This document shows positions 2,856 through 19,301 of a stretch of 64,000 nucleotides of DNA, piece after piece. The stretch's first letter is position 1, and each line of letters begins with the position of its first letter. The notes under the pieces were generated by a model that saw only the letters and a program-made list of their open reading frames with translations, had not been told where the DNA came from and ran no database searches. A program made the translations under genes and the position numbers. Source of the DNA: Niabella sp. (lineage in GTDB: Bacteria > Bacteroidota > Bacteroidia > Chitinophagales > Chitinophagaceae); NCBI GenBank assembly GCA_017744795.1, contig JAGIAQ010000011.1, forward strand, positions 1 through 64,000, read 5' to 3'.

Positions 2856-5069
2856 ATGAACCAGATAAAAAAACTTCCCGTAGGGGATTTGGGATATAAT
2901 TTTATTCCAAAGGAATTTTTACCCGAAGGTGAAAATGAATACTATATTCGTTTTAAACAGAACCCTGCCACAGACTACCGGCCGCTGACCCGCCAGGAGA
3001 TCGCTATATTAAAATCGAATGGCAACCGGTCGGACAATTGGTCCAATATTCTGGTTCGGGAGGGAATTGATGTATTGCTGATCGAGGATTGCACCTTCTT
3101 CGGACTGGTGCGCATCGGTAAACTGGAGCCCTATTTTTTGGAGTTCAGCCAGCTGCGCACACCCGTGGGCCTGTACCGCAGCTTTATTGTAAGCTGCGAT
3201 ATCGGCAATAATGTTGCCGTCAACAATGTGCGGATGCTGAGTCATTATATTATAGAGGATGAAGCCATCCTCATTAATGTAAATGAGATGTCCTGCACTT
3301 CTTACAGCAAGTTCGGGAACGGGATCATCAAAGAGGGAGAGCCTGAAGATATCCGCATCTGGCTGGAACTCTGTAATGAGAACGGCGGCAGAAAAGTAAT
3401 GCCCTTTGACGGCATGCTGCCCGGCGATGCCTGGCTATGGTCCAAATACCGGGCCAATGAAAAGCTGCTGGAAGCTTTCAAAGATTTTACGGATCGAAAG
3501 TTCGGCCGGCAGCGGGGCACATATGGCACTGTAGGAAAACGAACCATTATAAAGAATACACATATTGTTAAAGATGTACGTATAGGCAGCGATGCCTATA
3601 TAAAAGGTGCTAACAAATTAAAGAACCTCACCATTAACTCCGACGAAAACGCTAAATCACAAATTGGAGAAGGTTGTGAAATGGTAAACGGCATTATGGG
3701 TGCCGGCAGCCGGGCTTTTTACGGTGTAAAAGCCGTTCGTTTTATTTTAGCGCCGTTCTCTCAACTTAAATACGGGGCACGACTGATCAACTCCTACCTG
3801 GGTGAGAACGCCACCATTTCCTGTTGCGAGGTATTAAACACGCTCCTTTTTCCCGCACACGAACAACACCACAATAACTCTTTCCTTTGCGCATCATTGG
3901 TGATGGGACAAAGTAATATTGCTGCAGGAGCTACCATCGGATCGAATCATAATTCGCGCGCCGCAGATGGTGAATTGCAGGCCGGGCGCGGTTTCTGGCC
4001 GGGGCTTTGTGTAAGCCTGAAGCACAATTCAAAATTTGCATCCTTTACCATGATCGCCAAAGGCGATTATCCTGCCGAGCTCAATATACCAATACCTTTT
4101 TGTCTGGTAAGCAACGACCTGCACACGGATCAGTTAGTAATAATGCCTGGTTATTGGTTTTTGTATAATATGTATGCCATCCTGCGCAACGAACGAAAAT
4201 TTGCAGATCGTGATAAACGCAAAGAGAAAAAACAATTACTCGAATACGATTGTCTGGCCCCGGACACCGTAAACGAGCTCTTTACCGGGCTGCGCCTGCT
4301 TAGCCGGTATACAGGAAAGGCCTTCTATCAAAAGAATCAGTTAGTGGGCAGCGACCATGAGCAGGAACAAAAAGGACGTGAGCTGCTGGAAAGTCGTGCT
4401 CCTGTTGTAGCACAACTGGAGGTCTTTGCCGGAGACATAGAGAATTCTCATCGTCTGGTGCGGATCATAAAAGTACAGGAAGCCTATACCGTCTACAAAA
4501 GAATGCTCAGCTATTATGGCACCTGCCAGCTTATCAACTGGCTGAACCTGCAGGAAGAGAAAAATATTACTTCCATAAAAGATCTTTTTAGCAAAGCAGC
4601 AGAACGTAAAACCTGGTTAAACGTGGGCGGGCAACTGATCCCGGAGAAAGAAGTAAAAACACTGATCAGCAGTATTGAATCCGGCAGCACTGAAAAGGGC
4701 TGGGAACAGGTGCACACGTTTTATCAGCAACAGGCAGCAGCCTATGACACAGAAAAACTGCAGCACGGTCTTAGCGCCTTAAAAGAAATACATGGATTGA
4801 ATACTGATACAATAGAAGTGCCGTTGCTAACCGGTCTTTTGCAGGATGCAATAAACACCAAGGAGTGGATCGCCCAATCTGTTTACGATTCAAAAGTAAA
4901 GGATTATGAAAATCCATTTCGCAAAATGGTATATGAAAGCATTGTTGAAATGGAACAGGTTGTCGGCAAATTTTCCGACAACCAATTCGTGAACGAACAG
5001 CGCCAGGAAACAGCCACATTTAAAGAAAGCACAGAACAGCTGATTGCCCAATTAAAACTGTTGTTTTAA
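2856..5069 (+). CDS. DUF4954 family protein (probable left-handed beta-helix-like repeats)
   Basis: MNQIKKLPVGDLGYNFIPKEFLPEGENEYYIRFKQNPATDYRPLTRQEI... with hexapeptide-like stretches (NTHIVKDVRIGSDAYIKGANKLKNLTI, SNIAAGATIGSNHNSRAADGELQAGRGFWPGL). Family recognised from memory. Confidence 0.75.
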   Translation: MNQIKKLPVGDLGYNFIPKEFLPEGENEYYIRFKQNPATDYRPLTRQEIAILKSNGNRSDNWSNILVREGIDVLLIEDCTFFGLVRIGKLEPYFLEFSQLRTPVGLYRSFIVSCDIGNNVAVNNVRMLSHYIIEDEAILINVNEMSCTSYSKFGNGIIKEGEPEDIRIWLELCNENGGRKVMPFDGMLPGDAWLWSKYRANEKLLEAFKDFTDRKFGRQRGTYGTVGKRTIIKNTHIVKDVRIGSDAYIKGANKLKNLTINSDENAKSQIGEGCEMVNGIMGAGSRAFYGVKAVRFILAPFSQLKYGARLINSYLGENATISCCEVLNTLLFPAHEQHHNNSFLCASLVMGQSNIAAGATIGSNHNSRAADGELQAGRGFWPGLCVSLKHNSKFASFTMIAKGDYPAELNIPIPFCLVSNDLHTDQLVIMPGYWFLYNMYAILRNERKFADRDKRKEKKQLLEYDCLAPDTVNELFTGLRLLSRYTGKAFYQKNQLVGSDHEQEQKGRELLESRAPVVAQLEVFAGDIENSHRLVRIIKVQEAYTVYKRMLSYYGTCQLINWLNLQEEKNITSIKDLFSKAAERKTWLNVGGQLIPEKEVKTLISSIESGSTEKGWEQVHTFYQQQAAAYDTEKLQHGLSALKEIHGLNTDTIEVPLLTGLLQDAINTKEWIAQSVYDSKVKDYENPFRKMVYESIVEMEQVVGKFSDNQFVNEQRQETATFKESTEQLIAQLKLLF

Positions 5070-5074
5070 TTGGG

Positions 5075-5131
5075 CCGGTCCCACAAGTCGCATTAGTCCC
5101 ATTTGCAGGCTAGTGTGACAAGTGGGACCGG
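5075..5131. repeat. Inverted repeat (10-bp arms) downstream of the DUF4954 gene
   Basis: CCGGTCCCAC at 5075-5084 and reverse complement GTGGGACCGG at 5122-5131, just after the stop codon. Confidence 0.5.
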
Positions 5132-5223
5132 TGCCACAAACCGCAGCACCGCAGATAACCTATAACCCGCTACCTGTAACTTTCCTCCTCAAAAATCACC
5201 TGAATTAGCGATGGCCTTAAACG

Positions 5224-5252
5224 TTTTTCCGCAATTCCTCACGCTACCTTTG
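5224..5252 (+). promoter_or_regulatory. Candidate Bacteroidota-type promoter for the four-gene operon
   Basis: TACCTTTG at 5245-5252 matches the TAnnTTTG -7 consensus; T-rich -33 region GTTTTTC upstream. Would imply a leader of about 190 nt before the ATG at 5451. Confidence 0.4.
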
Positions 5253-5450
5253 TTAGCGAACAGGCGCAGATGACATAGCCCCGGGCAGGGCAATACTTAC
5301 TATATTTCTAAGAACGCCACCCAGTAATTAATGCAGTGCCCGACAGAAGCTGTCAGATCCTGAGACCCCATTAATGATCCTCTTTACGGCCGGGCCCTCT
5401 GGAAAAGACCAGCGATTTGCTTCATTGAAATCATTTTTAACCATTTCATT

Positions 5451-8400
5451 ATGGCAACAGCAACAGGCACCATTGAATCCCTCCTCTTAGAGTTAGGCAA
5501 GGCCATTGGCACCTTAGACCAGTCCCTGCAAACGCTCGGCGATGATATTTATGAAAAACTGGGAACCCCTTTGCCCGCGGCGCTCCGGGGCAATTCCGGT
5601 ATACTGGCCAAAACCAATGCGGTGGTATCAAAGGTTGCGGCGCTGGCCCCAATTGTAAGCGATCTGGCCGGAGCAATTGCCAGCACCAATATTGCCACCA
5701 TTATTCAAAAAGGAAGTGAACTGACCGCCGCGATTCCGGGTATTATCACCAGCATCAAAGAATTGGCAACCGCGATCACTAACCTGGCCAATGCGCTGCC
5801 TTCTGCCGCCGACCGGGATGCGTTATTGAATATGCTGCCCCAGCTGGCCGAACGTTTATTGGAATACGCCATCGTGGGCGCGCTGGGCGATAAAGCGCCT
5901 TATTTTACGCGCGTTGCCAACCTGCTGGGATTGATTGATAAAGAGCCCACTCCCCTGGCTGGTGTTACCCTTCCGCCCGCAACCACAGTCATTCCCAGAA
6001 GAATTTACCTGGACCAACTACCGGTGTTGCTGAGCGATCCGGGGCAATACCTGAAGAATACATTCCAATGGGGCAACCCGGGTTTCGACGGAAAGAAGCT
6101 TTATCAAAAAGTATTGGAGTTGATGCAGGAACTGGGACTTCCCGGCGACCTTACGGCAGCCGTTCCTCCAAAATTAGAAGCCGGCGGCACACCCGGTCAC
6201 CCTAACTTCACTTTGTCTTTAACCCCTTCCCTGAACCTGGGCTACCTGTTGCAGTTTGCAGCAGCAAAAAGCGCCCAGCCTTCTTTTAATATCTCACCCA
6301 ACTGGAAAGCCACAACCGACCTGGAAATAGCAGCGGCAGCAAGTATTGCAGGCGAGTGGTCTTTTCCCTTTGCCTTCACCGTTAATCCCACCGGCAGTTT
6401 CTCTTTAAAAACATCCGCAGGCGTTAAAGGTGAAAAATCAAGTGGCGATCCGATCAACATTATTTCCATTACCGGCAGCACCGGGTTGCAGGCCAAATCC
6501 ATCAGTGGCTCATTGGGGCTAACCGTTGATTCCGCCGGGATGCAGATCAATCCTTCGGTGCAAATAAAAGTGGAGGAGGGAAAATTAATCATCGACTTTT
6601 CGCAGGGCGATGGATTCATCCAGCAATTGCTTTCGGGCGTTCATTTCGAAGCCGATTTTGGTTTCACTGCTACCTGGGATCCCAAGAACGGGCTGAAGTT
6701 GCAGGGCAGCGGCGGCGTGGAATTATTCATTCCTCTGCAGGTAGACCTGGTATTGATCCAGGTAAAAGGCATTTATTTCTCCCTGGGATTTTCAACAGAA
6801 ACCCCGGTAAAACTGGGTCTGGGCGCACAATTGGGCGCCTGCCTGGGACCGTTGAAAGCGCTGGTAGATGACATTGGCACCAACATCAACCTAAGCTTTC
6901 CAACCAATGGCAGCGGCAATCTATCCTTTGCTCAAATGGGTTTTGGCTTTCAACCGCCCAATGGCGTTGGATTAAGCCTGGATACCGGGCCGATCAAAGG
7001 CGGCGGCTTTTTAAAGCTGGATCCGGCAAAAGGCGAATACTTCGGCTACCTGGAATTAAGTTTCCAGGGCATTGTTGATCTGAAAGCCATTGGCATCATC
7101 AACACCAAAATGCCCGACGGTTCCAATGGCTTCTCCTTGCTGATCCTGATCACCGCCGAATTCACGCCCATTCAACTGGGATTTGGATTTACGTTAAACG
7201 GTGTGGGTGGCCTGCTGGGGCTGAACCGCAGCACCGATGTTGACGCATTGAAGTTGGGTGTACGATCCGGCGCAGTAAGCAATATCCTCTTCCCTGAAAA
7301 CATTGAATCCAACTTCAACCAGATCATCAGTGATCTTAAGTCGATCTTCCCCATTGCAGAGGGGCATTTTATACTGGCCCCCATGGCTAAGCTGGGCTGG
7401 GGCACGCCTACACTGATCACGTTGGAGCTCGGAATCATTATCGACATTCCCAGCCCGCAACTGGTGATCCTGGGTGTGTTGCGCTGCATACTACCTTCTG
7501 AAGATGTACCGCTGTTGAGCCTGCAGGTAAATTTTGCCGGGGGCATTGATTTTACATCGGGGCTTTGGTTTGATGCCAGCCTGTTCGATTCAAAACTATT
7601 GACCTTTGTACTTACCGGCGATATGGCCCTGCGCATCAACTGGGGCGATCACCCTTCTTTCATTATTTCCGTGGGCGGGTTCCATCCAAAATTCAAAGAG
7701 ATCCCCCCCGACCTTGTGGGGATGAAACGGTTGAGTATCTCGCTGCTTTCCGGCGATAACCCGCGTATCACTATTTCTGCTTATTTCGCCATCACTTCCA
7801 ATACGGTGCAATCCGGCGCCCGGGCCGAGCTTTATGCCGCTGCCTGCGGATTTAATATTTACGGCTTCCTGGGGTACGATCTGCTCGTGCAATTTAGTCC
7901 GTTCCATTTTATTGCAGACATTGATGCCGGCATTGCCCTGAGATGCGGCACCGATGAGATCGCGGGCATCGACGTGCATTGCGAACTATCCGGCCCCACT
8001 CCGTGGAATGCGAATGGTGACGCCAGTTTGAAGATACTTTTCTTTAAGATCTCTGTTCACTTTAATGTTACCTGGGGCGATAATACACCGGCTCAGCCGA
8101 TAGAAAAAGTGATGGTGTTGGATCTGGTGGCCGCCGCCCTGAGCGATCAACGCAACTGGAAAGCAGACCTGCTGCCCAACACCTCCACCAACGTTACTTT
8201 AAAGACGATTGCGCTGCCGGCAGATCAGCCCGATGCCATCGTGGTGCAACCCTTTACTATTTTATCTGTAAGTCAGAAAGTAGCCCCGCTTGATTACAAG
8301 ATCGATAAGTTCGGAAACAAAGGGGTAGACGGAGACAATACCTTTACCATAACCACCACAGCGGCCAATACAGATACCAAAGAGGAGTTTGCCGTAAGCA

Positions 8401-8861
8401 ATTTCACCAAACTCAACGATGATGAAAAGCTTTCCCGCGAGTCGTTTACACAATTGAAAAGCGGCATCCGCTTCCAGACATCTGATGCCAGCCAATACGG
8501 GAACGAGATCGACAGAGAAGTAACCTATGAGTTGAAGTATTATCAGCGCAGCACAGGCCTGATATTTGTGTTTGGGCAGTTCCAGTTCCTGAAGGACGCG
8601 TTCGACATATTTGTAAAAGGCAATGCCATTAATAAAAGCGCGTTGGCAGTGAATAAAAAGATCGCCACCAATGCGCCGGCAACGATTAACGTAGCGCCCC
8701 CAGCTTATTCTGTAGTGCATACCAGCAATATGGAGCTTGTGAACGCTACTTCGGTGGCGGCTTCAGAAGCAGAAGCCTATAACCTGCAGCAGGCGCTGAT
8801 CAGCGGCGATCCCACACTGAAAAATAAAATCCAGGTCGTTTCACAATTTGAACTGAATTAA
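5451..8861 (+). CDS. Large DUF6603-like protein, 1136 aa, function unknown (giant-protein operon gene A)
   Basis: Complete ORF. Helical N-terminus, then long beta-rich hydrophobic/Gly segments (PIQLGFGFTLNGVGGLLGLNRSTDVDALKLGVRSG; LTFVLTGDMALRINWGDHPSFIISVGGFHPKF). I recall these motifs as DUF6603-like, but could not search. Confidence 0.8.
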   Translation: MATATGTIESLLLELGKAIGTLDQSLQTLGDDIYEKLGTPLPAALRGNSGILAKTNAVVSKVAALAPIVSDLAGAIASTNIATIIQKGSELTAAIPGIITSIKELATAITNLANALPSAADRDALLNMLPQLAERLLEYAIVGALGDKAPYFTRVANLLGLIDKEPTPLAGVTLPPATTVIPRRIYLDQLPVLLSDPGQYLKNTFQWGNPGFDGKKLYQKVLELMQELGLPGDLTAAVPPKLEAGGTPGHPNFTLSLTPSLNLGYLLQFAAAKSAQPSFNISPNWKATTDLEIAAAASIAGEWSFPFAFTVNPTGSFSLKTSAGVKGEKSSGDPINIISITGSTGLQAKSISGSLGLTVDSAGMQINPSVQIKVEEGKLIIDFSQGDGFIQQLLSGVHFEADFGFTATWDPKNGLKLQGSGGVELFIPLQVDLVLIQVKGIYFSLGFSTETPVKLGLGAQLGACLGPLKALVDDIGTNINLSFPTNGSGNLSFAQMGFGFQPPNGVGLSLDTGPIKGGGFLKLDPAKGEYFGYLELSFQGIVDLKAIGIINTKMPDGSNGFSLLILITAEFTPIQLGFGFTLNGVGGLLGLNRSTDVDALKLGVRSGAVSNILFPENIESNFNQIISDLKSIFPIAEGHFILAPMAKLGWGTPTLITLELGIIIDIPSPQLVILGVLRCILPSEDVPLLSLQVNFAGGIDFTSGLWFDASLFDSKLLTFVLTGDMALRINWGDHPSFIISVGGFHPKFKEIPPDLVGMKRLSISLLSGDNPRITISAYFAITSNTVQSGARAELYAAACGFNIYGFLGYDLLVQFSPFHFIADIDAGIALRCGTDEIAGIDVHCELSGPTPWNANGDASLKILFFKISVHFNVTWGDNTPAQPIEKVMVLDLVAAALSDQRNWKADLLPNTSTNVTLKTIALPADQPDAIVVQPFTILSVSQKVAPLDYKIDKFGNKGVDGDNTFTITTTAANTDTKEEFAVSNFTKLNDDEKLSRESFTQLKSGIRFQTSDASQYGNEIDREVTYELKYYQRSTGLIFVFGQFQFLKDAFDIFVKGNAINKSALAVNKKIATNAPATINVAPPAYSVVHTSNMELVNATSVAASEAEAYNLQQALISGDPTLKNKIQVVSQFELN

Positions 8862-8862
8862 T

Positions 8863-11800
8863 ATGGCAGACCAAATCACCGTTGGCAAATACACCTTTAG
8901 TTCCTGGTTAAGGAACGGTATTGGCGGCAACATTATTGAAACCGACAACCTGGGGCAGGGCAGCTCTTCTTTAAAAGAGCGCGCCAAAGTACCAGTAGAT
9001 ATTGCAGTGAATACAAGGGCCATTCACCAGGAGTTTTTCCTCATTGGCCCCGGCGATATCATCGGCATTAATCCGCAAATGATCGTGCGCACGGAACCGC
9101 TGAACTGGATCACTAATTTTGAACCGAATTACCTGCCCTTTATCGAATTTTATGAGGAGGATTTCCTCTGGCGCTATACGCCTGCAAAAGCCAACGGAGA
9201 CCGGCATCGCCCCTGGATGACCTTATTGGTTTTAAAAGATACCGATAACGCTGCCGACAAAGAATTTGTATTCAATCAGAACCGCGCCCCACTGGCAACA
9301 GTAGTCGTTTCCAAAGCAGAAACCCTTCCCTTAGCCGTCCAAAGCTGGGCCTGGGGCCATGTGCATATCAACGATGGGTTTACGCCGGAAGACCCGCTGG
9401 AAACTTTTCTGGAATCGGTGCATAACCTGAACGATCCGGGCAAGGATAAGATCATCTGCCGCCTCATGAGCAACCGCAAGCTGGAAGCCAATACCGGCTA
9501 CCGTGCCTTCCTGGTGCCCTCTTTTGAAACAGGACGTTTGGGCGGCCTGGGACTGGATACCAGTACTACGGATGCCCAACAGCCTTCCTGGCAGGATGGC
9601 CAGGCCAATATAGAATTTCCCGTTTACTACCATTGGTATTTCCGGACCAGCGATGATGCCGATTTTGAATCCCTGGTAAAAATACTGGAGCCGCGCCCTA
9701 TGGATAAGCGCATCGGCATCCGGGATATGGATGGTTCCAAACCGGGCTTTGGTATGACCGTTGGCACTGTGATCGGAGCAGCAGTATCCGGGGACCCGGC
9801 ACCCACAAGTATCATCGGGTTGGAAGGGGCACTGAAATCCCCGGACACTATCTCCAACCCCCAGGCTATTGATACTACACAACCTTTCTTTGGACAGTTA
9901 CAGGAGATCCTGAATTTTCCGGCCGAGCTGCAAAAAGAGACCAACAACAATGCGGACCCGGTGGTGAGCCCTCCTATCTATGGAGAGAACCATGCTATGA
10001 TCCATGAAATAGATGTTACACAACCCGGCTGGCTGCATGGCTTAAACAAAGACCCGCGCAACCGCGTGCCGGGCGGGTTTGGGGTGAGTGTGATCCAAAA
10101 GAACCAGGAAGATTTTGTAGCCCGCGCCTGGCAGCAGGTGAAGGATATTCTTGCAGCCAACCGAAAAATCCTGTTCGGTAATTTATCCATGCAGGTAACC
10201 CTGGCCATCGCCAAAAATTTTATTTCCAAACTCTCCCCCGAAAAGAATCTCTTGTTCTTTTCGTCGATCCTCAAAAAAGTAAAAGGCTCCCCCACCACCC
10301 TGCAATACCAGATCGAACAAAGCAAGATCCCTGCGGCAGCAGTGAGCACTCCTTTAAGAAGGATGTTACGACCCCGCGGCGCCTTTTTCAAAAAGCTGCA
10401 GGCCGCTGATCCCAATTTTTCCCACGGCACCCTGCTGCAAAATTTAAACAACGGCACCATCACCGCAGCGCCGCCGAAACAGGCTCCGGCAGACCTTTTC
10501 ACTGATGATACGTTTATCAATAATCTCAACACAAAAACGCCCGCCGGCATTCTTGATTTTCTTTTCAAACATCGCTTATTATTGCTCATCCTGTTGCTGC
10601 TCCTAGCTCTTTTTATGGGCCTGTTCCTGGGCGCGTGGTTAGCGGCCATTGGGTTAGCGGTTGTTGCTGTTGGGCTCTATTTCTATCTGGCCAACCATCA
10701 GCCCGATCCCGGCGAAGCCGAAATAGAAGCTCCAAAGGATGAAGCCAAATCCTTACAGGAAGCCCCGCCCAACCCGGGTTTCACCTTTATTGAAACCGAC
10801 CCGGTGGTGGTTCCGGCAACAACCGGTGGTACTACGGTAACCGCATCCGACCAGGCTACTTCGTCAGCTGCAAGTGCGGCACACTATGAGCAGGTGGCAA
10901 TGTACACTCCGGCCGCTGCCGGTGCAGATAGTCTGGAGGCGAATAATTTCCGCAAGGCCGCCATCGCATTAAATGAGCGCCTGGCCATAGTGGCGCCGGA
11001 AAAAACCTTTGTGGAATTTGATCTGCAAAATGCCTTCCAGAAACTAAACACGGCTACCGACCCCAGGTTGATCTTCCCCAAACTGATCGCATCGCATGTC
11101 AATTTCACATTCAATCCCGGGTGGTTACTGAATTGGGAACACCTGGTGCCGGCAATGGCGTATCCTGATTTTGACGATGCCATGTATAAACCGCTCAGTA
11201 ATATTTCAAGCGAACTATTGATCCCCAACCTGAAGTTAATACCACCAAACACTATTTCTTTACTGGTAACCAATCCCGCCTTTATTGAGTCCTACATGGT
11301 GGGATTAAACTACGAATTCGGGAAAGAATTGTTGTGGCGCGAATACCCTACAGATGAGCGGGGAAGCTATTTCCGCCAGTTTTGGGATGTAAAAGGCGTC
11401 ATCAATCAGAAACCGGGAGATGCTGCCAATGCAACGGTTGAAGCGCACAGAGACATTACGCCTATCGATACCTGGTACAGCTCCTCCCTGTTGGGCCAGC
11501 ATAATAAATCGAACCCAACCGGCGCTAAAAAAGTGGTATTGGTGATCAAAGGCGAGTTATTCAAAAAATACCCGAATACCATTGTGTACGCGCAAAAAGC
11601 GCATCCAAATCCGGATACTGCTACCGGCCCGGCTGCTGTAATCAAAGAGCCAAAAACATCAGATGACATGAATGCCGAAATTCAGTTCCCGCTGTTCACG
11701 GCGGACGTAGACCCGGACATTAAATTCTTTGGCTTTGACCTCACCGTTAACCAGGCCAAAGGCGATGACAATCCCAAAACCGATAAAGATGACTGGGGGT

Positions 11801-12111
11801 ACTATTTTGTGATCCAGCAGGTGCCGGGTGAACCGCGGTTTGGAATGGAGATCGACAATACAAAACAAACCGGACAAGCCCTTACATGGAACGATCTGGC
11901 CTGGACGAATTGTACGCTATCGCACGGGTTTATTAATGTATCCAATACGCCCACCCTATCGGGTTTGCCTTCCAATTCCAATAACAATACCCGCGACGGG
12001 TTGGATCAATGGGGGCAAAATGCCGCCCTCTTCGCTAATATTTTTTACAGAAGGCCCTACATGATGGCCGTGCACGCAAAAGACATGCTTGATAAACTGG
12101 CCGTAAATTAA
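8863..12111 (+). CDS. Uncharacterised 1082-aa protein with a mid-protein transmembrane hairpin (operon gene B)
   Basis: Starts 1 nt after gene A's stop. Motif blocks NYLPFIEFYEEDFLWRYTPA, YYHWYFRTSDDADFESLVKILEPRPMDKRIGIRDMD, NYEFGKELLWREYPTDERGSYFRQFWD. Hydrophobic stretch LLLLILLLLLALFMGLFLGAWLAAIGLAVVAVGLYFYLA. Confidence 0.8.
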   Translation: MADQITVGKYTFSSWLRNGIGGNIIETDNLGQGSSSLKERAKVPVDIAVNTRAIHQEFFLIGPGDIIGINPQMIVRTEPLNWITNFEPNYLPFIEFYEEDFLWRYTPAKANGDRHRPWMTLLVLKDTDNAADKEFVFNQNRAPLATVVVSKAETLPLAVQSWAWGHVHINDGFTPEDPLETFLESVHNLNDPGKDKIICRLMSNRKLEANTGYRAFLVPSFETGRLGGLGLDTSTTDAQQPSWQDGQANIEFPVYYHWYFRTSDDADFESLVKILEPRPMDKRIGIRDMDGSKPGFGMTVGTVIGAAVSGDPAPTSIIGLEGALKSPDTISNPQAIDTTQPFFGQLQEILNFPAELQKETNNNADPVVSPPIYGENHAMIHEIDVTQPGWLHGLNKDPRNRVPGGFGVSVIQKNQEDFVARAWQQVKDILAANRKILFGNLSMQVTLAIAKNFISKLSPEKNLLFFSSILKKVKGSPTTLQYQIEQSKIPAAAVSTPLRRMLRPRGAFFKKLQAADPNFSHGTLLQNLNNGTITAAPPKQAPADLFTDDTFINNLNTKTPAGILDFLFKHRLLLLILLLLLALFMGLFLGAWLAAIGLAVVAVGLYFYLANHQPDPGEAEIEAPKDEAKSLQEAPPNPGFTFIETDPVVVPATTGGTTVTASDQATSSAASAAHYEQVAMYTPAAAGADSLEANNFRKAAIALNERLAIVAPEKTFVEFDLQNAFQKLNTATDPRLIFPKLIASHVNFTFNPGWLLNWEHLVPAMAYPDFDDAMYKPLSNISSELLIPNLKLIPPNTISLLVTNPAFIESYMVGLNYEFGKELLWREYPTDERGSYFRQFWDVKGVINQKPGDAANATVEAHRDITPIDTWYSSSLLGQHNKSNPTGAKKVVLVIKGELFKKYPNTIVYAQKAHPNPDTATGPAAVIKEPKTSDDMNAEIQFPLFTADVDPDIKFFGFDLTVNQAKGDDNPKTDKDDWGYYFVIQQVPGEPRFGMEIDNTKQTGQALTWNDLAWTNCTLSHGFINVSNTPTLSGLPSNSNNNTRDGLDQWGQNAALFANIFYRRPYMMAVHAKDMLDKLAVN

Positions 12112-12117
12112 TTGAAC

Positions 12118-15100
12118 ATGAGCTATTCAGATACCATCCAACAAATCAGAAACGCCCGCACCGACAGGGATACGGCCAAAGAGCAATTGTACGCGCTCCA
12201 GATGCAGTACCAGCAATTGCTGAAGCAACAGCGCGCCGCAACCAATGGAAACATTATCCAGGATGCACAACTATCTGCAACTATTGATCAATTAAGGCAA
12301 CAAATTGCCGCGCTCAGCAGCCAGCTGAATACTGTGGAAGCGCAACTCAACGCCAATGATCAGCAAAAAGCACAACTGCTGAATGTACAGCAATACCTGC
12401 AGCAGGTGCAGGATGAGATCAGCACCCTGCAAAACAAAATTGACGGCATCAACAACGAGCTGCAAAACGGAGACCTGACCGATGTACAAAAACAGGAGCT
12501 GGCCATTCAACGGGATGCCCTGCAGCAGCAGGTAACATTACTGAAGCAAAAGGCAGCAGCACTGCAGCAATCGATAACAAGCATCCGGAACGGTTTATTA
12601 CCGCAACAGGATGAGGCCCGGCTGCGGGGGCTTCAAAGTAGTTTAACCGCGCAAATAAATGAATTGCAAACCGCGTTGAACGCTGCCGTAGCGCGGGGCA
12701 CCCAACAAGCGCCGGATCAGAAAGAACAGCTTGCCGGTCTGGAAGCGCAGATCGGCAAACTGAATGAAACCGTTAAAGGCAAAACCGGCACTGTTTCTTC
12801 AGTGATTGGCCAGTTGCTGCACCAAAACCCGCAACAGCTGATCGAGAGCTGGAATGATACTATTCCCATCCTGCTGCAGCCAGTACGTATGGAAACAAAA
12901 TTCAGCCAGAATGAGCTGTGGGTGCGGATTTACCCGGATGATATCGCCATTGTTACGCATGAAAAAATGCTGATGCTGGATGAGATCACTTATGGCATTA
13001 CCCACTGGAAAGAGATCTGGAATGCCAAAGACGACGCAGATAAAAAACAGGCCGTATGGAAAGTGATCACCGACAGTTACGGCCTAAACCGTTCTGCCTG
13101 GATCGTATTGCAGACCAAGCCTTCCAACTGGGCCAATGCTGCTACTCTCGCTTCGGCCGACGACCTTATATTTCCAACTTTCGATACAACGAAACCGGAT
13201 AGCTGGACGCAGGCGGCACATACCAAGGTAATGCCCGACCGGTTTGTGCTGCTCTGTTACCGCGGCGGTATTTTGGTGCATACTCAATTAGGCAACCCGA
13301 TAGACGACATTATCATTGCCGGCCCGGCGCCGGTCACAGGCGTTACGGATACTTCCATCAGCCGTGATGCCACAACAGGAGAAATTACCTATAGCGATGA
13401 CTTTATCTGGATCAAAGATTTTGATAATGCTGTTGGAAAAGGAATGGGCTTTAAAGTACCGCTGGATCAAACAAGCGCCGTGAATGGCTTTGATGAAGTA
13501 CTGGCCGTAGGCCTGAAGCTTTCCGCCGATGAAACAGACGGACAACAATTACTGGAAGAGTTACTGACCAATCACCGCTATGGGCAGGAAGGATTGAGTT
13601 TGATACAACAGGGAACACCCACCAACAATACAGATGACAGCTCCTCCGGTTATAGCCAGAAACAAACCATTGACGATATTGCGGGCTTTATCGAAAAAGA
13701 CCAGCGCTTATTTACACCGGCCAATAACTGGCAGGAAGCTACAGATGGGCAACGGTTAGCCGATTATCTTGGAATCAGTTATGAGTTGCTGCAAACCACT
13801 CAAAATAGCCAGTTGACCGACCACATGGAGGCCTTAGCCGCCAACAACGCTTTATACGCAGGCACATTGGGCTACTATATGCACAATATGCTGCAGGAAG
13901 TTTTAAGCGATGCCGGCATGCTGAATCTCCGAAACCACTTTACCAGTTTGGTCACTGGCCGCGGGCCACTGGCCTCCATCAAAGTGGGCAGTCAGCCCTA
14001 TGGCATTATTGTAACCAGCGATTTTTCAAACTGGAATTATCCGCAGCGCCCGGTCAATACGGAATTTGTTGTTGCCAACACCAGTCAGGATGCGTTCTAC
14101 CGGCTATTATACAATCTATTGGGGCGTTTGCAAACCCTGTGGCAAAGCTATGTTCCCAAACTGGCCACTATCAGCTCAACCGGCGATGCAGATGCCAACC
14201 TGCTCCAGGTATTGGGACTTAATCCCACCTCGGTAGATTTTTATCAGCGTATTGCTTTCAGCATGGACTATTTGCAGAACCTGGCCAATTTTAAGAACGG
14301 CGGCAAATATGCCCAGGATATTCTAAATGCACAACGGGAACGTTCTGATGTAATTGCCTTTCTAAAATCGTTGGGCTACCAGGACAAAGATGGCTCCGGA
14401 AAGCAAAAACCCTTTCCGTTATTGACCCAGCTTGTCTTTCAGCATTATCAAACAAGGTTAGATAATCTGAACCTGGTGGACGGTCCGGCATTATCAGAAA
14501 CAGATGGCATTGCGCCCTATGATAAAACAACGGGGGAAAATTATATGGACTGGCTGTTGAAAAACGCCACCAACACAACCGCATTACAACAGGTTGACTT
14601 CGGCGGAAACCCGCGTCCTACGTCAACCCTGTTTATGCTGCTGCTTTATGCACAGTTGCATGAAGCCAGTCAAAGTATTTACCAATACCTCTTGCAATAC
14701 AATATTGTCGCCAAAGAAATTGTACAGTCCCGCAAATTTATGAACATCAGCAGCAGTCCTTCCATTACGCACTGGGAAGTATTCGATGCGCCCGTTAATA
14801 AAATTGTTACAGATCCTTCTGTAACAGAAGCCCGTCCGTTGCTGCAATATATTTTTTCGTTATTACCCACCAATGTTAACCTGGTTCAGAATCTCGCAGC
14901 GCACCAATGGGGGTTAAACATCCTGAAAAGCCTGCCCGGTGCCCGTTTGGAGCGTTTATTAGTGGAGCACCTCGACACCCTGAGCTATCGCCTGGATGCC
15001 TGGGAAACTTCTTTATTCGATCAGCGCCTGCAGGCGCAACGAAACATTGCAGTCAATAAAAACAGTGATGGCAATAATAACATCCAGCGAAACACCGGAA

Positions 15101-17517
15101 TTTACATGGGCGCCTATGGTTATCTTGAAAAAGTGAAGCCAGGCAATAAACGCACCCGGGTGCGTGAAGAAATTTTGCCACGCTCCTTATGGACCCAGCA
15201 AAATAATTTATATACGGAAGCCGGCAACGGCGGCTATGTGCAGGCGCCCACGCTGAATCATGCAACGGCCGCAGCTATTTTGCGGAATGGCTTCCTGACA
15301 CATGCCAACCCCGCAGAAAAGGAACTGCTTACCGTAAACCTGTCTTCAGAAAGAGTACGCCGCGCCAAAGGATTGTTAGAGGGCATTCAAAACGGACAAA
15401 CACTGGAAGCATTATTGGGGTATCAGTTTGAACGCGGGCTGCACGACTGGACCACCCGCCCCGTAAACCCCGTGATCCTGGATATGCTTATCCCGGCTTT
15501 CCGGGATCAATTTCCGATCACAAAAACAAAAGTGCCTCAAAACGGCAATGTAACCGGCCCCGAGGAAACCATCAAAGATTACAGCGTTGTAAACGGATTA
15601 GCGTTAGCAAACATCACTGTGGATTTCCCCTATGGCATCGCAGTACCGGTGGCCTTGAGCAATGATCAGATCAATGCCGTAAAAGAGGAAAAGAAAGGCA
15701 TTGAAGATACACTGGACGCTATGCGGGATCTGCTCACTGCGGAAAGCGCTTACCAGTTAGCCCTCGGAAATTTTGACCGGGCTGCGGCGGTGATGCAGGC
15801 GATATCCGGAGCTTCCATCAGCCCGGAACCAGAGATCATTGGCTCCTCACGTGGCACAGACCTGAGTTTCACCAATAAAGTAGTGGTGCATTTTGATAAT
15901 ACCACGTCACTGCCCGCTCCCTGGGCGGCCATCCCGCTTACACAACGGGCATTAACGGAACCCGGACTGAACAGTTGGCTAACGGGCCTTCTGGGCGACC
16001 CCACTACCATCAAATGTGCAGTAGCAGCGGTGGACAGCGATGGGAATATTTTGAAAAGACCAGACAATTCGCCCATTGCCGGCATTATTTCTTTAGACCA
16101 GCTGGCGATACAGGCCATCGACCTTGTGTATCTGACCCAGACGAAGCAAGAAGCTTCCGGCACCTCGGAACTGGAAACCCGCATCCGGTACCGGTTTGCC
16201 CAGGACAACCAACTCACCGATGGTACCATTATAAAAATAACCTTTACGGATAGCGGCACTGCGGATCTTTCCACCCGCTCGTTTGCAGAAATATTGCCAC
16301 TGGCCAGCTATTTAAAACAAATAGTGTCGGCCGCCAGCGCCCTTGCTGCAAAAGAGTATGAACCGGCATCCAAAACACTTACGAATGCACCCGGCGATAA
16401 TGCCAATAACATTCAGTGGGCGGAACTGCAAAACCGGGCCGCAAACCTTTATACCAATTACCAGTCTTTGTCAGCCCAATTAAATTCGGCGCTTACTGAC
16501 GTGACGGCATTGAATACAGCAGCAGCCATTGAGCAACTGAGAAATACATTGGTACGTATTGCCAATGCCGGCTTCGCCTTTGCCTTCCCGCATTCCTGTT
16601 TTGGCGACGAGGCGGATCAGGCTTCCACTTTAGTAGCACAGGGAAACGGTATCCTGGCACAATTCTCAAAATTATTTGACGCCTATAATTCCAACCTGGC
16701 CACCGTTAACAAACCCGCCACTACCATTGATCAAAAAGTGCCATTGCTGACGGCGATGATCCGTTCTTTCCTGGGCGATGCATTTAAGGTAATGCCTGTC
16801 TTTAACTTCAATAATATTGCAGACGTTACCAAGGCAGCCGATCCTGCAAGCCGCGCACAATTACGGCAATTCATCAACGGCAAATACCCGGGCGCCCTGC
16901 CGGTTGACGAATGGCTGCACGGCACTTCATTGGTAAGACCAGCGCTGCACAAACTGGAAATGGTGCGGCTGCTGAACGATACATTAAACGGAGGAAATAT
17001 GGAATTATCGCCCCTGCAGTTGCCCTACCGGGATAATGATACCTGGCTGGCAACCGAGTATCCTGACGACACTTCCATATTGCAGGACACCTTCTCCGTT
17101 GTACAACTCAATTTCGATGCCTTTAATCCAACCGGGAACCAGTGCGGGTTGCTGATCGATGCCTGGACGGAAACCATTCCTAATAAAGAGGAAGTAACCG
17201 GTATTGCCTTCAACTACAATCAGCCCAACACCGTGCCGCCACAGGCTTTGCTGCTGGCCGTTACCCCGCAGCAAACCGGCAGCTGGAAATGGGATCACCT
17301 GGTCAATACCATACTAGACACTTTTGCCCGGGCCAAAAGACGCGCGGTTGAGCCGGACCATATTGATACCATGAGCACCATCAGTACCTTATTGCCCGCA
17401 CTGATCACCGAGTTCAGCACCAGTCCCTTCGGAATCTCGCTGGACCAGGCGATTAATATTAAATTCATAGCCAAGGCCGCATATAATATAAACATGCTTA
17501 ATCCTGTTCAACCATGA
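12118..17517 (+). CDS. Uncharacterised ~1799-aa protein with N-terminal coiled coil (operon gene C)
   Basis: ATG at 12118 (ORF track uses TTG 12112). About 220 aa of Gln-rich heptad-like sequence, then motif blocks GRGPLASIKVGSQPYGIIVTS, EHLDTLSYRLDAWETSLFDQRLQAQR, GIYMGAYGYLEKVKPG, SSERVRRAKGLLEGIQNGQTLEALLGYQFERGLHD. Confidence 0.8.
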   Translation: MSYSDTIQQIRNARTDRDTAKEQLYALQMQYQQLLKQQRAATNGNIIQDAQLSATIDQLRQQIAALSSQLNTVEAQLNANDQQKAQLLNVQQYLQQVQDEISTLQNKIDGINNELQNGDLTDVQKQELAIQRDALQQQVTLLKQKAAALQQSITSIRNGLLPQQDEARLRGLQSSLTAQINELQTALNAAVARGTQQAPDQKEQLAGLEAQIGKLNETVKGKTGTVSSVIGQLLHQNPQQLIESWNDTIPILLQPVRMETKFSQNELWVRIYPDDIAIVTHEKMLMLDEITYGITHWKEIWNAKDDADKKQAVWKVITDSYGLNRSAWIVLQTKPSNWANAATLASADDLIFPTFDTTKPDSWTQAAHTKVMPDRFVLLCYRGGILVHTQLGNPIDDIIIAGPAPVTGVTDTSISRDATTGEITYSDDFIWIKDFDNAVGKGMGFKVPLDQTSAVNGFDEVLAVGLKLSADETDGQQLLEELLTNHRYGQEGLSLIQQGTPTNNTDDSSSGYSQKQTIDDIAGFIEKDQRLFTPANNWQEATDGQRLADYLGISYELLQTTQNSQLTDHMEALAANNALYAGTLGYYMHNMLQEVLSDAGMLNLRNHFTSLVTGRGPLASIKVGSQPYGIIVTSDFSNWNYPQRPVNTEFVVANTSQDAFYRLLYNLLGRLQTLWQSYVPKLATISSTGDADANLLQVLGLNPTSVDFYQRIAFSMDYLQNLANFKNGGKYAQDILNAQRERSDVIAFLKSLGYQDKDGSGKQKPFPLLTQLVFQHYQTRLDNLNLVDGPALSETDGIAPYDKTTGENYMDWLLKNATNTTALQQVDFGGNPRPTSTLFMLLLYAQLHEASQSIYQYLLQYNIVAKEIVQSRKFMNISSSPSITHWEVFDAPVNKIVTDPSVTEARPLLQYIFSLLPTNVNLVQNLAAHQWGLNILKSLPGARLERLLVEHLDTLSYRLDAWETSLFDQRLQAQRNIAVNKNSDGNNNIQRNTGIYMGAYGYLEKVKPGNKRTRVREEILPRSLWTQQNNLYTEAGNGGYVQAPTLNHATAAAILRNGFLTHANPAEKELLTVNLSSERVRRAKGLLEGIQNGQTLEALLGYQFERGLHDWTTRPVNPVILDMLIPAFRDQFPITKTKVPQNGNVTGPEETIKDYSVVNGLALANITVDFPYGIAVPVALSNDQINAVKEEKKGIEDTLDAMRDLLTAESAYQLALGNFDRAAAVMQAISGASISPEPEIIGSSRGTDLSFTNKVVVHFDNTTSLPAPWAAIPLTQRALTEPGLNSWLTGLLGDPTTIKCAVAAVDSDGNILKRPDNSPIAGIISLDQLAIQAIDLVYLTQTKQEASGTSELETRIRYRFAQDNQLTDGTIIKITFTDSGTADLSTRSFAEILPLASYLKQIVSAASALAAKEYEPASKTLTNAPGDNANNIQWAELQNRAANLYTNYQSLSAQLNSALTDVTALNTAAAIEQLRNTLVRIANAGFAFAFPHSCFGDEADQASTLVAQGNGILAQFSKLFDAYNSNLATVNKPATTIDQKVPLLTAMIRSFLGDAFKVMPVFNFNNIADVTKAADPASRAQLRQFINGKYPGALPVDEWLHGTSLVRPALHKLEMVRLLNDTLNGGNMELSPLQLPYRDNDTWLATEYPDDTSILQDTFSVVQLNFDAFNPTGNQCGLLIDAWTETIPNKEEVTGIAFNYNQPNTVPPQALLLAVTPQQTGSWKWDHLVNTILDTFARAKRRAVEPDHIDTMSTISTLLPALITEFSTSPFGISLDQAINIKFIAKAAYNINMLNPVQP

Positions 17518-19301
17518 CCGCTACTACACTTACAGATATAATGATACAACCCGGGGCCAATTTGTTAAAAGAAGCTTACCGGCAGTTTTCCATCACGGCT
17601 TACAATCGTATGGAGCCAAGAGCCCGTTCGGAGAACTTCGACAAGAGCCTGCGGGCCGAAGTACGCGACCCGCTTTGGTACCTGACCCGTCAGTGGCAAA
17701 TGGGTGAATTTGAAGCAGAAGACGCCGGATCCGCTATTGATGCGCGCGTGGTTACGCAAAAGATCCACATCGATCGCATTGCCCTGAAAGGCACGGATGG
17801 CAGGGCTTACAGCGAAGCCATCCCGATGGAAGCATTGGTAGAACGGGAAGCGATCCCTTTTACACTGGCGCTTAAAATACAGGTAGCACAATATTTTTTA
17901 AAACTGCATTCCCCGGCCCTGTCAGCAAAGTACGTATCCAAGTATTTAACCCTGTATCCTATAGAAGCCGGTAAGGAAGCCGATTATAAAGGACAGGTAG
18001 ACGGATTGAACCTATACACATCGGTTTATAAACGCGCATTCGATGGTCAAAAACTATACGCAGATATTGCAGCAGGGACCTTTAAAACAAATGCAGGAAT
18101 TATTGATCCGGGCGATGAAGCAGCCATCAACCTTATTATTCCTGTTTTTCAAAGCTGGTATGCCCGCCAATACACCCAGCCCGCACAGCCCGGCGATGTG
18201 GCGTGGATACCGGAGCACCTGTCTTACAATGTTTCCATAGCCGCGCCCGATGCGTTTCAGTCGCAGGTGGTATTAAGCAGTGATCATTACCACCAGGGGC
18301 AGCTGGACTGGTTCGATTTTGATGAAGTGCAGAATGGCCCGTCGTTAAGCATCGACTATCCCGCGCAGGCTTCCACACCAGAAACGGCTGACCCGCTTTC
18401 ATTCATCCCCAACGCCGCTGGTTTCAAGGGGATGCCCAATCCCCGGTTTTGGGAAATGGAAGAAGGCCAGGTAAATTTTGGCAAGCTGAATGCAAAAACC
18501 ACCGACCACCTGTTGCTCAGTTTTGCAGAGTTTGGATTGATATACGCCAACGACTGGTTCGTTATCCCTTATAAAATGCCGGTGAATACCCTTTGTGAGA
18601 TCACCGGTTTTGTGGTTACTGATGTATTTGGCGAAAGAACATTGATACAGGCAGCTGATGCAGGAGCCGACAGCGATTGGCAGCGCTGGAGTCTATTCAA
18701 CATCAGCAATAAAGACCAGATCGGCAATTATAACCGGCAGTTCTTTTTACCTTCCACCCTTACCCGCACCCTGCAAAGCGACCCCATTGAACAGGTCAAT
18801 TTTGTGCGTGATGAAATGGCCAATATGGTTTGGGGCATTGAAGACACAATACCCGACGCTACAGGCGTGGGCATTAACGGGCATGATGCAGCTGATAAAG
18901 CAGGTGTATTACCGGAGCCTATTGACAATTCAGTGGCCAACATCCGCTATCTTTTGGGCACTACCGTTCCTGAAAACTGGATCCCCTTTTTACCGGTTCA
19001 CGCCCCCGGCAGCAACCAGTCGATCCGTTTTCAACGGGCCGCTATGCCCAAGCTGGGGGTTCCGCCCAAAGACGTGGTAAAGGCCAAAGGAGTACTATTA
19101 CAGGAAGTGCAGCCACATTTTTTTATTAATGAAGAAGAGATCCCGGATTCCGGAACCCTTGTAACCCGGTATTATCAGCGGGCGCGCTGGTATAATGGTA
19201 AAACATTTCTGTGGATTGGTCGCCGTACGCAAACCGGTAAAGGAGAAGGCAACAGCAAACTGGCATTCGACCAAATCACCTCTTTAAAGGGAACGAGCTA
19301 A
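17514..19301 (+). CDS. Uncharacterised 595-aa protein (operon gene D)
   Basis: 4-bp ATGA overlap with gene C. Motif blocks EVRDPLWYLTRQWQMGEFEAEDAGSAIDARV, FWEMEEGQVNFGKL, LIYANDWFVIPYKMPVNTLCEI, RARWYNGKTFLWIGRRTQTGKGEGNSKLAFDQI. Confidence 0.8.
   Translation: MTATTLTDIMIQPGANLLKEAYRQFSITAYNRMEPRARSENFDKSLRAEVRDPLWYLTRQWQMGEFEAEDAGSAIDARVVTQKIHIDRIALKGTDGRAYSEAIPMEALVEREAIPFTLALKIQVAQYFLKLHSPALSAKYVSKYLTLYPIEAGKEADYKGQVDGLNLYTSVYKRAFDGQKLYADIAAGTFKTNAGIIDPGDEAAINLIIPVFQSWYARQYTQPAQPGDVAWIPEHLSYNVSIAAPDAFQSQVVLSSDHYHQGQLDWFDFDEVQNGPSLSIDYPAQASTPETADPLSFIPNAAGFKGMPNPRFWEMEEGQVNFGKLNAKTTDHLLLSFAEFGLIYANDWFVIPYKMPVNTLCEITGFVVTDVFGERTLIQAADAGADSDWQRWSLFNISNKDQIGNYNRQFFLPSTLTRTLQSDPIEQVNFVRDEMANMVWGIEDTIPDATGVGINGHDAADKAGVLPEPIDNSVANIRYLLGTTVPENWIPFLPVHAPGSNQSIRFQRAAMPKLGVPPKDVVKAKGVLLQEVQPHFFINEEEIPDSGTLVTRYYQRARWYNGKTFLWIGRRTQTGKGEGNSKLAFDQITSLKGTS

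Follow-up and report, generated by a model that had tools for sequence, protein, structure and literature searches.

The described systems that come closest to the locus treated here are the ABC (Tc) toxin complexes, the encapsulins and the extracellular contractile injection systems (eCIS; Afp, PVC and AlgoCIS type), together with the protein family DUF6603. The locus is an operon of four genes, given the working names A, B, C and D, which occupies positions 5451-19301 on the + strand of a 64,000-nucleotide stretch of DNA from Niabella sp. (contig JAGIAQ010000011.1; hereafter, the window). ABC (Tc) complexes combine several very large proteins that lack signal peptides with an exchangeable enzyme part. 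The proteins of the A-D operon are likewise very large, signal-less and accompanied by an exchangeable enzyme, and may work in a similar manner. However, the enzymes beside A-D are encoded by separate genes, mostly upstream, and Pfam and NCBIfam gave no match to Tc (TcA, TcB) or Rhs domains in A-D. Encapsulins are loaded by way of a common terminal element carried by unrelated enzymes whose genes neighbour those of the carrier, a principle that A-D may also follow. Unlike encapsulins, A-D are four unrelated giants, and the putative tag is a domain of ~125 aa rather than a short peptide; Pfam found no HK97-fold shell protein in A-D, and the predicted fold of D is not similar to one. The eCIS share with A-D an environmental spread over Bacteria and haloarchaea and payloads that vary between genomes and lack a Sec signal, but they are built from sheath, tube, baseplate, PAAR and ATPase proteins, none of which has a homologue among A-D. 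They are frequent in Chitinophaga and Algoriphagus (PMC8213781). Finally, A is a clear member of DUF6603, a family that is also found in operons without B, C and D.

The comparison made below suggests that A-D form a platform on which exchangeable enzymes are carried, probably to be released or delivered, a reading for which the chances appear evenly balanced. The observations made are that A-D are one co-inherited, horizontally spread unit, that an interchangeable enzyme with intact active-site motifs and no Sec signal is encoded next to them, and that two of the enzyme folds encoded there have a common C-terminal domain that is exclusive to the A-D operon.

Organization, distribution and families of the A-D operon

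The operon and the region that precedes it in the window are composed as follows.

Gene A: 5451-8861, + strand; ORF of 1136 aa; DUF6603 protein, predicted helical over ~1-230 with GTIE near its start, predicted strands over ~250-875, then a mixed C-terminal region
Gene B: 8863-12111, + strand; ORF of 1082 aa; conserved N- and C-terminal blocks
Gene C: 12112-17517, + strand; 1801 aa if started at TTG, 1799 aa if started at the ATG of position 12118
Gene D: 17514-19301, + strand; ORF of 595 aa; ATGA overlap with C
Intergenic region: 5070-5450, no strand; 381 nt, non-coding, following a presumed DUF4954-like gene; site of the enzyme gene in most homologous operons

The genes are closely packed. 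A and B meet in TAATATG, with 1 nt from stop to ATG, the B/C junction reads TAATTGAACATG, with 6 nt to the ATG of C, and C and D share a 4-bp ATGA overlap. The initial annotation had described four + strand open reading frames (ORFs) with such junctions, which is borne out by the ORF coordinates and the junction sequences, and all four motif blocks that it quoted are present in the translations. The genome assembly from which the window derives measures 4.57 Mb in 241 contigs and is 90%-complete, the window being contig 22. The gene upstream of A (2856-5069), which we take to be DUF4954-like, is separated from it by 381 nt and does not seem to belong with the operon.

Plasmids of Gemmatirosa, Streptomyces, haloarchaea, Rhizobium and Paraburkholderia provided the first relatives of D, and a scan of the GTDB genome collection yielded 389 places that encode one. 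A sample of 80 of these loci covers Bacteroidota, Actinomycetota, Chloroflexota, Acidobacteriota, Cyanobacteriota, Planctomycetota, Verrucomicrobiota, Nitrospirota and Pseudomonadota. A-D recur in about ten bacterial phyla and a haloarchaeon, nearly always in the order A-B-C-D; this order is the same in the loci read from Gemmatirosa, Rhizobium (with both B and C in two pieces), Paraburkholderia and the haloarchaeon Salinigranum, and the order B-C-D is general across the D loci read. All 44 D-carrying genomes tested have a DUF6603 gene, A, in the same orientation as D and 8-11.5 kb upstream of it, and DUF6603 was found in none of 14 control genomes. The module is sparse: D is carried by 8 of the 396 Bacteroidota genomes that make up the phylum sample (2%). 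In the tree of D, the window's copy falls in a clade with 100% support alongside Verrucomicrobia, Gammaproteobacteria and Gemmatimonadota, and a Niabella copy, of the same genus, groups apart from it with Algoriphagus; horizontal spread is the simplest reading of a tree that so crosses taxonomy. The proposal of a conserved, horizontally spread multi-protein module has therefore held up, as has the co-occurrence of the four genes across phyla.

Some of the loci call for separate mention. On a plasmid of Streptomyces anthocyanicus, D is accompanied by a short remnant of C only, with IS5 transposases ~4-6 kb upstream, and looks like a decayed module. In Salinigranum, D (L006:20007-22727) has lamin-tail domains in a C-terminal extension, and C, a protein of 2322 aa, bears a BGTF surface annotation. 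The metagenome-assembled genome (MAG) titled 'Williamsia sp. isolate E01' (L063; G121, also G560) appears to be a genome of the window's family; its title seems mistaken, and it is not to be counted as an actinobacterium.

By sequence, A is the sole member of a Pfam family among the four. It matches DUF6603 (PF20248) with an E-value of 6e-127 and 424.7 bits, against a cut-off of 27, which places it within the family; DUF6603 is itself without a known function. Searches of B, C and D against Pfam, PHROGs, NCBIfam and PADLOC gave weak noise only, mostly coiled coil in the N-terminus of C, PDB profile searches of all four proteins likewise gave coiled-coil noise and no real relative, and profile comparison of B, C and D with one another found no homology. 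The initial annotation, which called all four proteins uncharacterized, needs correcting in that A is not without any annotation. None of these resources, nor the fold searches with D, placed the proteins in a characterized family, an outcome that would have spoken against the initial proposal.

B has numerous near-invariant columns (alignment A5) and, in the window copy, a hydrophobic stretch resembling a transmembrane segment at ~570-610; a strongly hydrophobic segment is present in 27% of its homologues. C has an N-terminal coiled coil of ~230 aa; the conserved part after it includes the block GRGPLASIKVGSQPYG and others related to it. Mean column identity in its alignment (A7, n=23 sequences) is 33%. 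D is marked by the RDPLWYLTRQWQMGEF block and by invariant W55, R59-Q60-W61-Q62, G64 and E65.

An AlphaFold2 model of A, built from 63 sequences, has a predicted local distance difference test score (pLDDT) of 77 and a predicted template modelling score (pTM) of 0.47. It comprises a helical N-terminal domain and ~39 long antiparallel strands of alternating hydrophobicity. The best PDB fold matches of the model are large outer-membrane barrels (PapC, FimD, LptD and SprA) and apoB, at template modelling (TM) scores <0.3 and root mean square deviations (rmsd) mostly >20 A. A is thus predicted to be a giant amphipathic beta meander, and in this model the fold matches reflect the strand pattern alone. 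The model of D has a pLDDT of 79 and a pTM of 0.76, and it found no match at E <0.1 among PDB or viral (BFVD) folds.

A second type of DUF6603 operon, without B, C and D, was encountered at loci L150-L155 (genomes G017, G132, G126, G020 and G111). Its DUF6603 proteins measure ~1500 or 3200-3900 aa and lie beside other large unknown proteins; in one case (L154), a gene resembling an enzyme of the metallo-beta-lactamase (MBL) fold lies directly upstream.

The variable enzyme gene and its C-terminal domain

The region around and upstream of A was surveyed over 20 kb in 40 genomes. In 35 of them, a large gene (380 aa or more) in the same orientation as A stops no more than 200 nt from its start, usually overlapping it or lying within ~50 nt. 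G116 and G132 have a pair of such large genes directly downstream of D instead, and in one surveyed genome A is considerably lengthened at its N-terminus. Pfam scans and clustering divide the proteins of this slot into at least 10 unrelated types. Proteases are represented by Nal1-related trypsin-like enzymes, M64 metallopeptidase-like proteins, S8 subtilases and M10-like proteins; the other types include PhoD-like phosphatases, phospholipase D (PLD), patatin, tyrosinase, galactose-oxidase-like and beta-lactamase-like proteins, as well as several unknown families. Their catalytic motifs are largely intact: GDSG is present in 14/15 trypsin-like enzymes, HExxH in 6/6 M64 proteins, GDQIY and DDH[ED] in 8/8 PhoD proteins and two HKD motifs in 2/2 PLD proteins, and the trypsin triad H151/D212/S340 is invariant in 11/11 sequences (alignment A10). 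As judged from these residues, the slot enzymes are apparently active.

The occupants of the slot are interchangeable. At least 20 changes of enzyme type were counted on the D tree among 38 rows (minimum, 11; shuffled mean, 25.2), and each of four genomes has two modules with different enzymes. The second module of Leptolyngbya PCC 7375 is rearranged to C-D-PhoD-A, such that PhoD still lies immediately 5' of A. Three loci (L125, L083 and L172) have two or three tandem trypsin-like enzymes per slot, mostly with the C-terminal domain described below, which suggests several enzymes per platform.

The last ~125 residues of the trypsin-like slot enzymes constitute a domain, here termed the tag domain, with which subtilisin-fold slot enzymes also end. 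A profile derived from the trypsin-like proteins detects it in subtilases of G021 (E 1e-20) and G143 (E 2e-16), and in G113 it occurs as a stand-alone protein of 136 aa. Across 43 genomes with the A-D operon, 20 of 20 strong tag-domain matches fall in the slot and zero elsewhere. A blind search of 150 genomes of the window's family returned five positive genomes, all five of which also have D; two of these, G021 and G560, were known previously, and in the three newly read ones (G539, G549 and G605) the tag-bearing proteins encoded directly upstream of A are subtilases or a trypsin-like protease. Slot proteins at two other loci (L119:3009-7009 and L120:2959-5070; beta-lactamase-like, M10-like and unknown) have MCKTT or MCKSS in common in their N-terminal part, which may be another type of tag.

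The presence of tag-bearing proteases also covaries with A itself. GT[LIV]E, a motif close to the start of A that was chosen post hoc after the sequences had been inspected, is found in 11 of 13 operons with a tag-bearing protease compared with 2 of 25 with other enzymes (Fisher test, 4e-6). Among phylogenetically independent pairs, the count is about 6 to 0 (median p 0.03).

Sec signals were sought by means of a test for the hydrophobic core, which detected 10/10 secreted proteins of the window and 0/5 cytoplasmic ones. By this test, homologues of A-D look like Sec substrates in 1 case out of 287, and slot enzymes in 2 out of 34. This near-absence indicates that the slot enzymes, which are of families usually exported, are made as cytoplasmic proteins.

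Possible functions of the operon

The first alternative to be weighed is that A-D and the enzyme depend on an eCIS. Two genomes, one of Chitinophaga filiformis and the other a Flavihumibacter MAG, have a complete eCIS cluster 0.5-0.8 kb after PhoD-A-B-C-D and in the same orientation; it encodes sheath, tube, hub, PAAR, gp25, Baseplate_J, Pvc16 and eCIS_core proteins. The eCIS tube marker PF06841 is moreover present in 33 of 47 genomes with A-D, as opposed to 45 of 198 Bacteroidota, and the window's genome itself has an eCIS on another contig. At that locus (L164-L165, contig C161 of G000), a 1710-aa eCIS_core protein ends in Ntox4/Ntox1-like domains. This apparently strong enrichment is confounded by lineage, however, because within the genus the marker is common even where A-D are absent: 14 of 17 genomes have it and only two of these have A-D. 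The adjacency is confined essentially to one lineage, 14 of the 47 A-D genomes, isolates included, lack a tube gene, and no match to eCIS_core (PF13699) was found among 37 slot proteins. Dependence on an eCIS was set aside on the grounds of the confounding and of the genomes without the marker, and is judged quite unlikely; the link is a lead, not a conclusion.

Many defence systems combine a conserved core with swappable hydrolases, a layout that is resembled by A-D with their trypsin-like, subtilase, PLD and patatin partners. A-D could accordingly be an intracellular effector platform that senses stress or an invader and unleashes the bound enzyme inside the cell, with which the absence of Sec signals and the patchy distribution among Bacteroidota would agree. 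It is nonetheless unlikely, as PADLOC matches are limited to the coiled-coil noise in C and, for the enzymes, to models of a generic kind for subtilase and PLD (DrmC), no domain for nucleotide binding or sensing was found, and tyrosinase, galactose-oxidase-like proteins and PhoD would be unusual defence effectors. Less probable again is a membrane translocon, in which A, as a beta barrel of the outer membrane, would export the enzyme and B-D would be its partners. The ladder of amphipathic strands in the model of A and its barrel-like best matches point this way, but A has no Sec signal and is present in Actinobacteria and a haloarchaeon, which have no comparable outer membrane. A barrel was ruled out on this taxonomy and on fold matches that are alike in strand pattern alone, leaving the translocon very unlikely. 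Genes for structural proteins of a phage, prophage or tail-like particle are scarcely credible: B, C and D were found in none of the 2.9 million viral contigs of IMG/VR, there is no significant PHROG match, and D has no viral fold match, and a phage or prophage origin was rejected on the viral-contig and PHROG negatives. The point in its favour is one unverified faecal 'bacteriophage' scaffold (MT835531.1) with the 3' end of A and B-C-D; because no other viral contig has these genes, it is probably a bacterial contig.

The platform with exchangeable enzymes is preferred, and may be envisaged as follows. A-D would assemble into one multi-protein platform, as their strict co-inheritance, fixed order and translational coupling suggest. 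Different lineages would mount different enzymes on it, one or more per operon, supplied by the fifth gene that normally lies immediately upstream of A. The protease types would probably be loaded through the C-terminal domain, acting in docking, and the helical N-terminus of A possibly recognizes this domain. Since the enzymes lack Sec signals, the loaded particle would be built in the cytoplasm. It would then most likely act after release or delivery, on extracellular substrates or other cells, a destination to which we assign roughly an even chance.

Several points weigh against this reading. PhoD, M64, PLD and other slot types lack the tag domain, such that a general docking rule is unsupported, and joint transfer of the adjacent enzyme and A genes would yield the covariation with the post hoc GT[LIV]E motif equally well. 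The model of A is only moderately confident. Assembly, loading and export are all inferred. The window's own copy has no enzyme gene beside it, the upstream region (5070-5450) being non-coding, domain search found no tag-domain protein in its 90%-complete genome, and no convincing remnant of a slot enzyme or orthologue of the subtilases was seen in the window or its genome. The initial annotation had remarked that the surroundings do not give away the role of the operon; the variable enzyme gene, by which such operons are normally completed, is absent here, and the context therefore hid the role. In this organism, the partner may be an enzyme of another class encoded elsewhere, may have been lost, leaving an empty platform, or may lie in the missing 10% of the assembly.

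Significance

A search of the open-access literature for DUF6603/PF20248 or for the A-D gene combination returned nothing relevant, with the proviso that a description may have been missed. This kind of module thus appears to be undescribed, a novelty that rests on there being no match by family, fold or open-access literature. The fuller proposal is that of an undescribed cross-domain nanomachine, in which four giants of new fold form a particle independent of signal peptides, with active exchangeable enzymes docked by a C-terminal domain (in the protease types) and released or delivered outside the producer; it is tentative, and taken in its entirety we would lean slightly against it.

If true, Bacteria and Archaea would share an unrecognized means of packaging and deploying enzymes that are normally exported singly through Sec or Tat. 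The docking domain would predict which proteins are carried, such that the operon supplies its own test. Environmental bacteria such as Chitinophaga, Streptomyces and Leptolyngbya would possess a modular delivery or compartment system, one that may offer a route to load chosen enzymes, and four large families of orphan proteins would gain functions.

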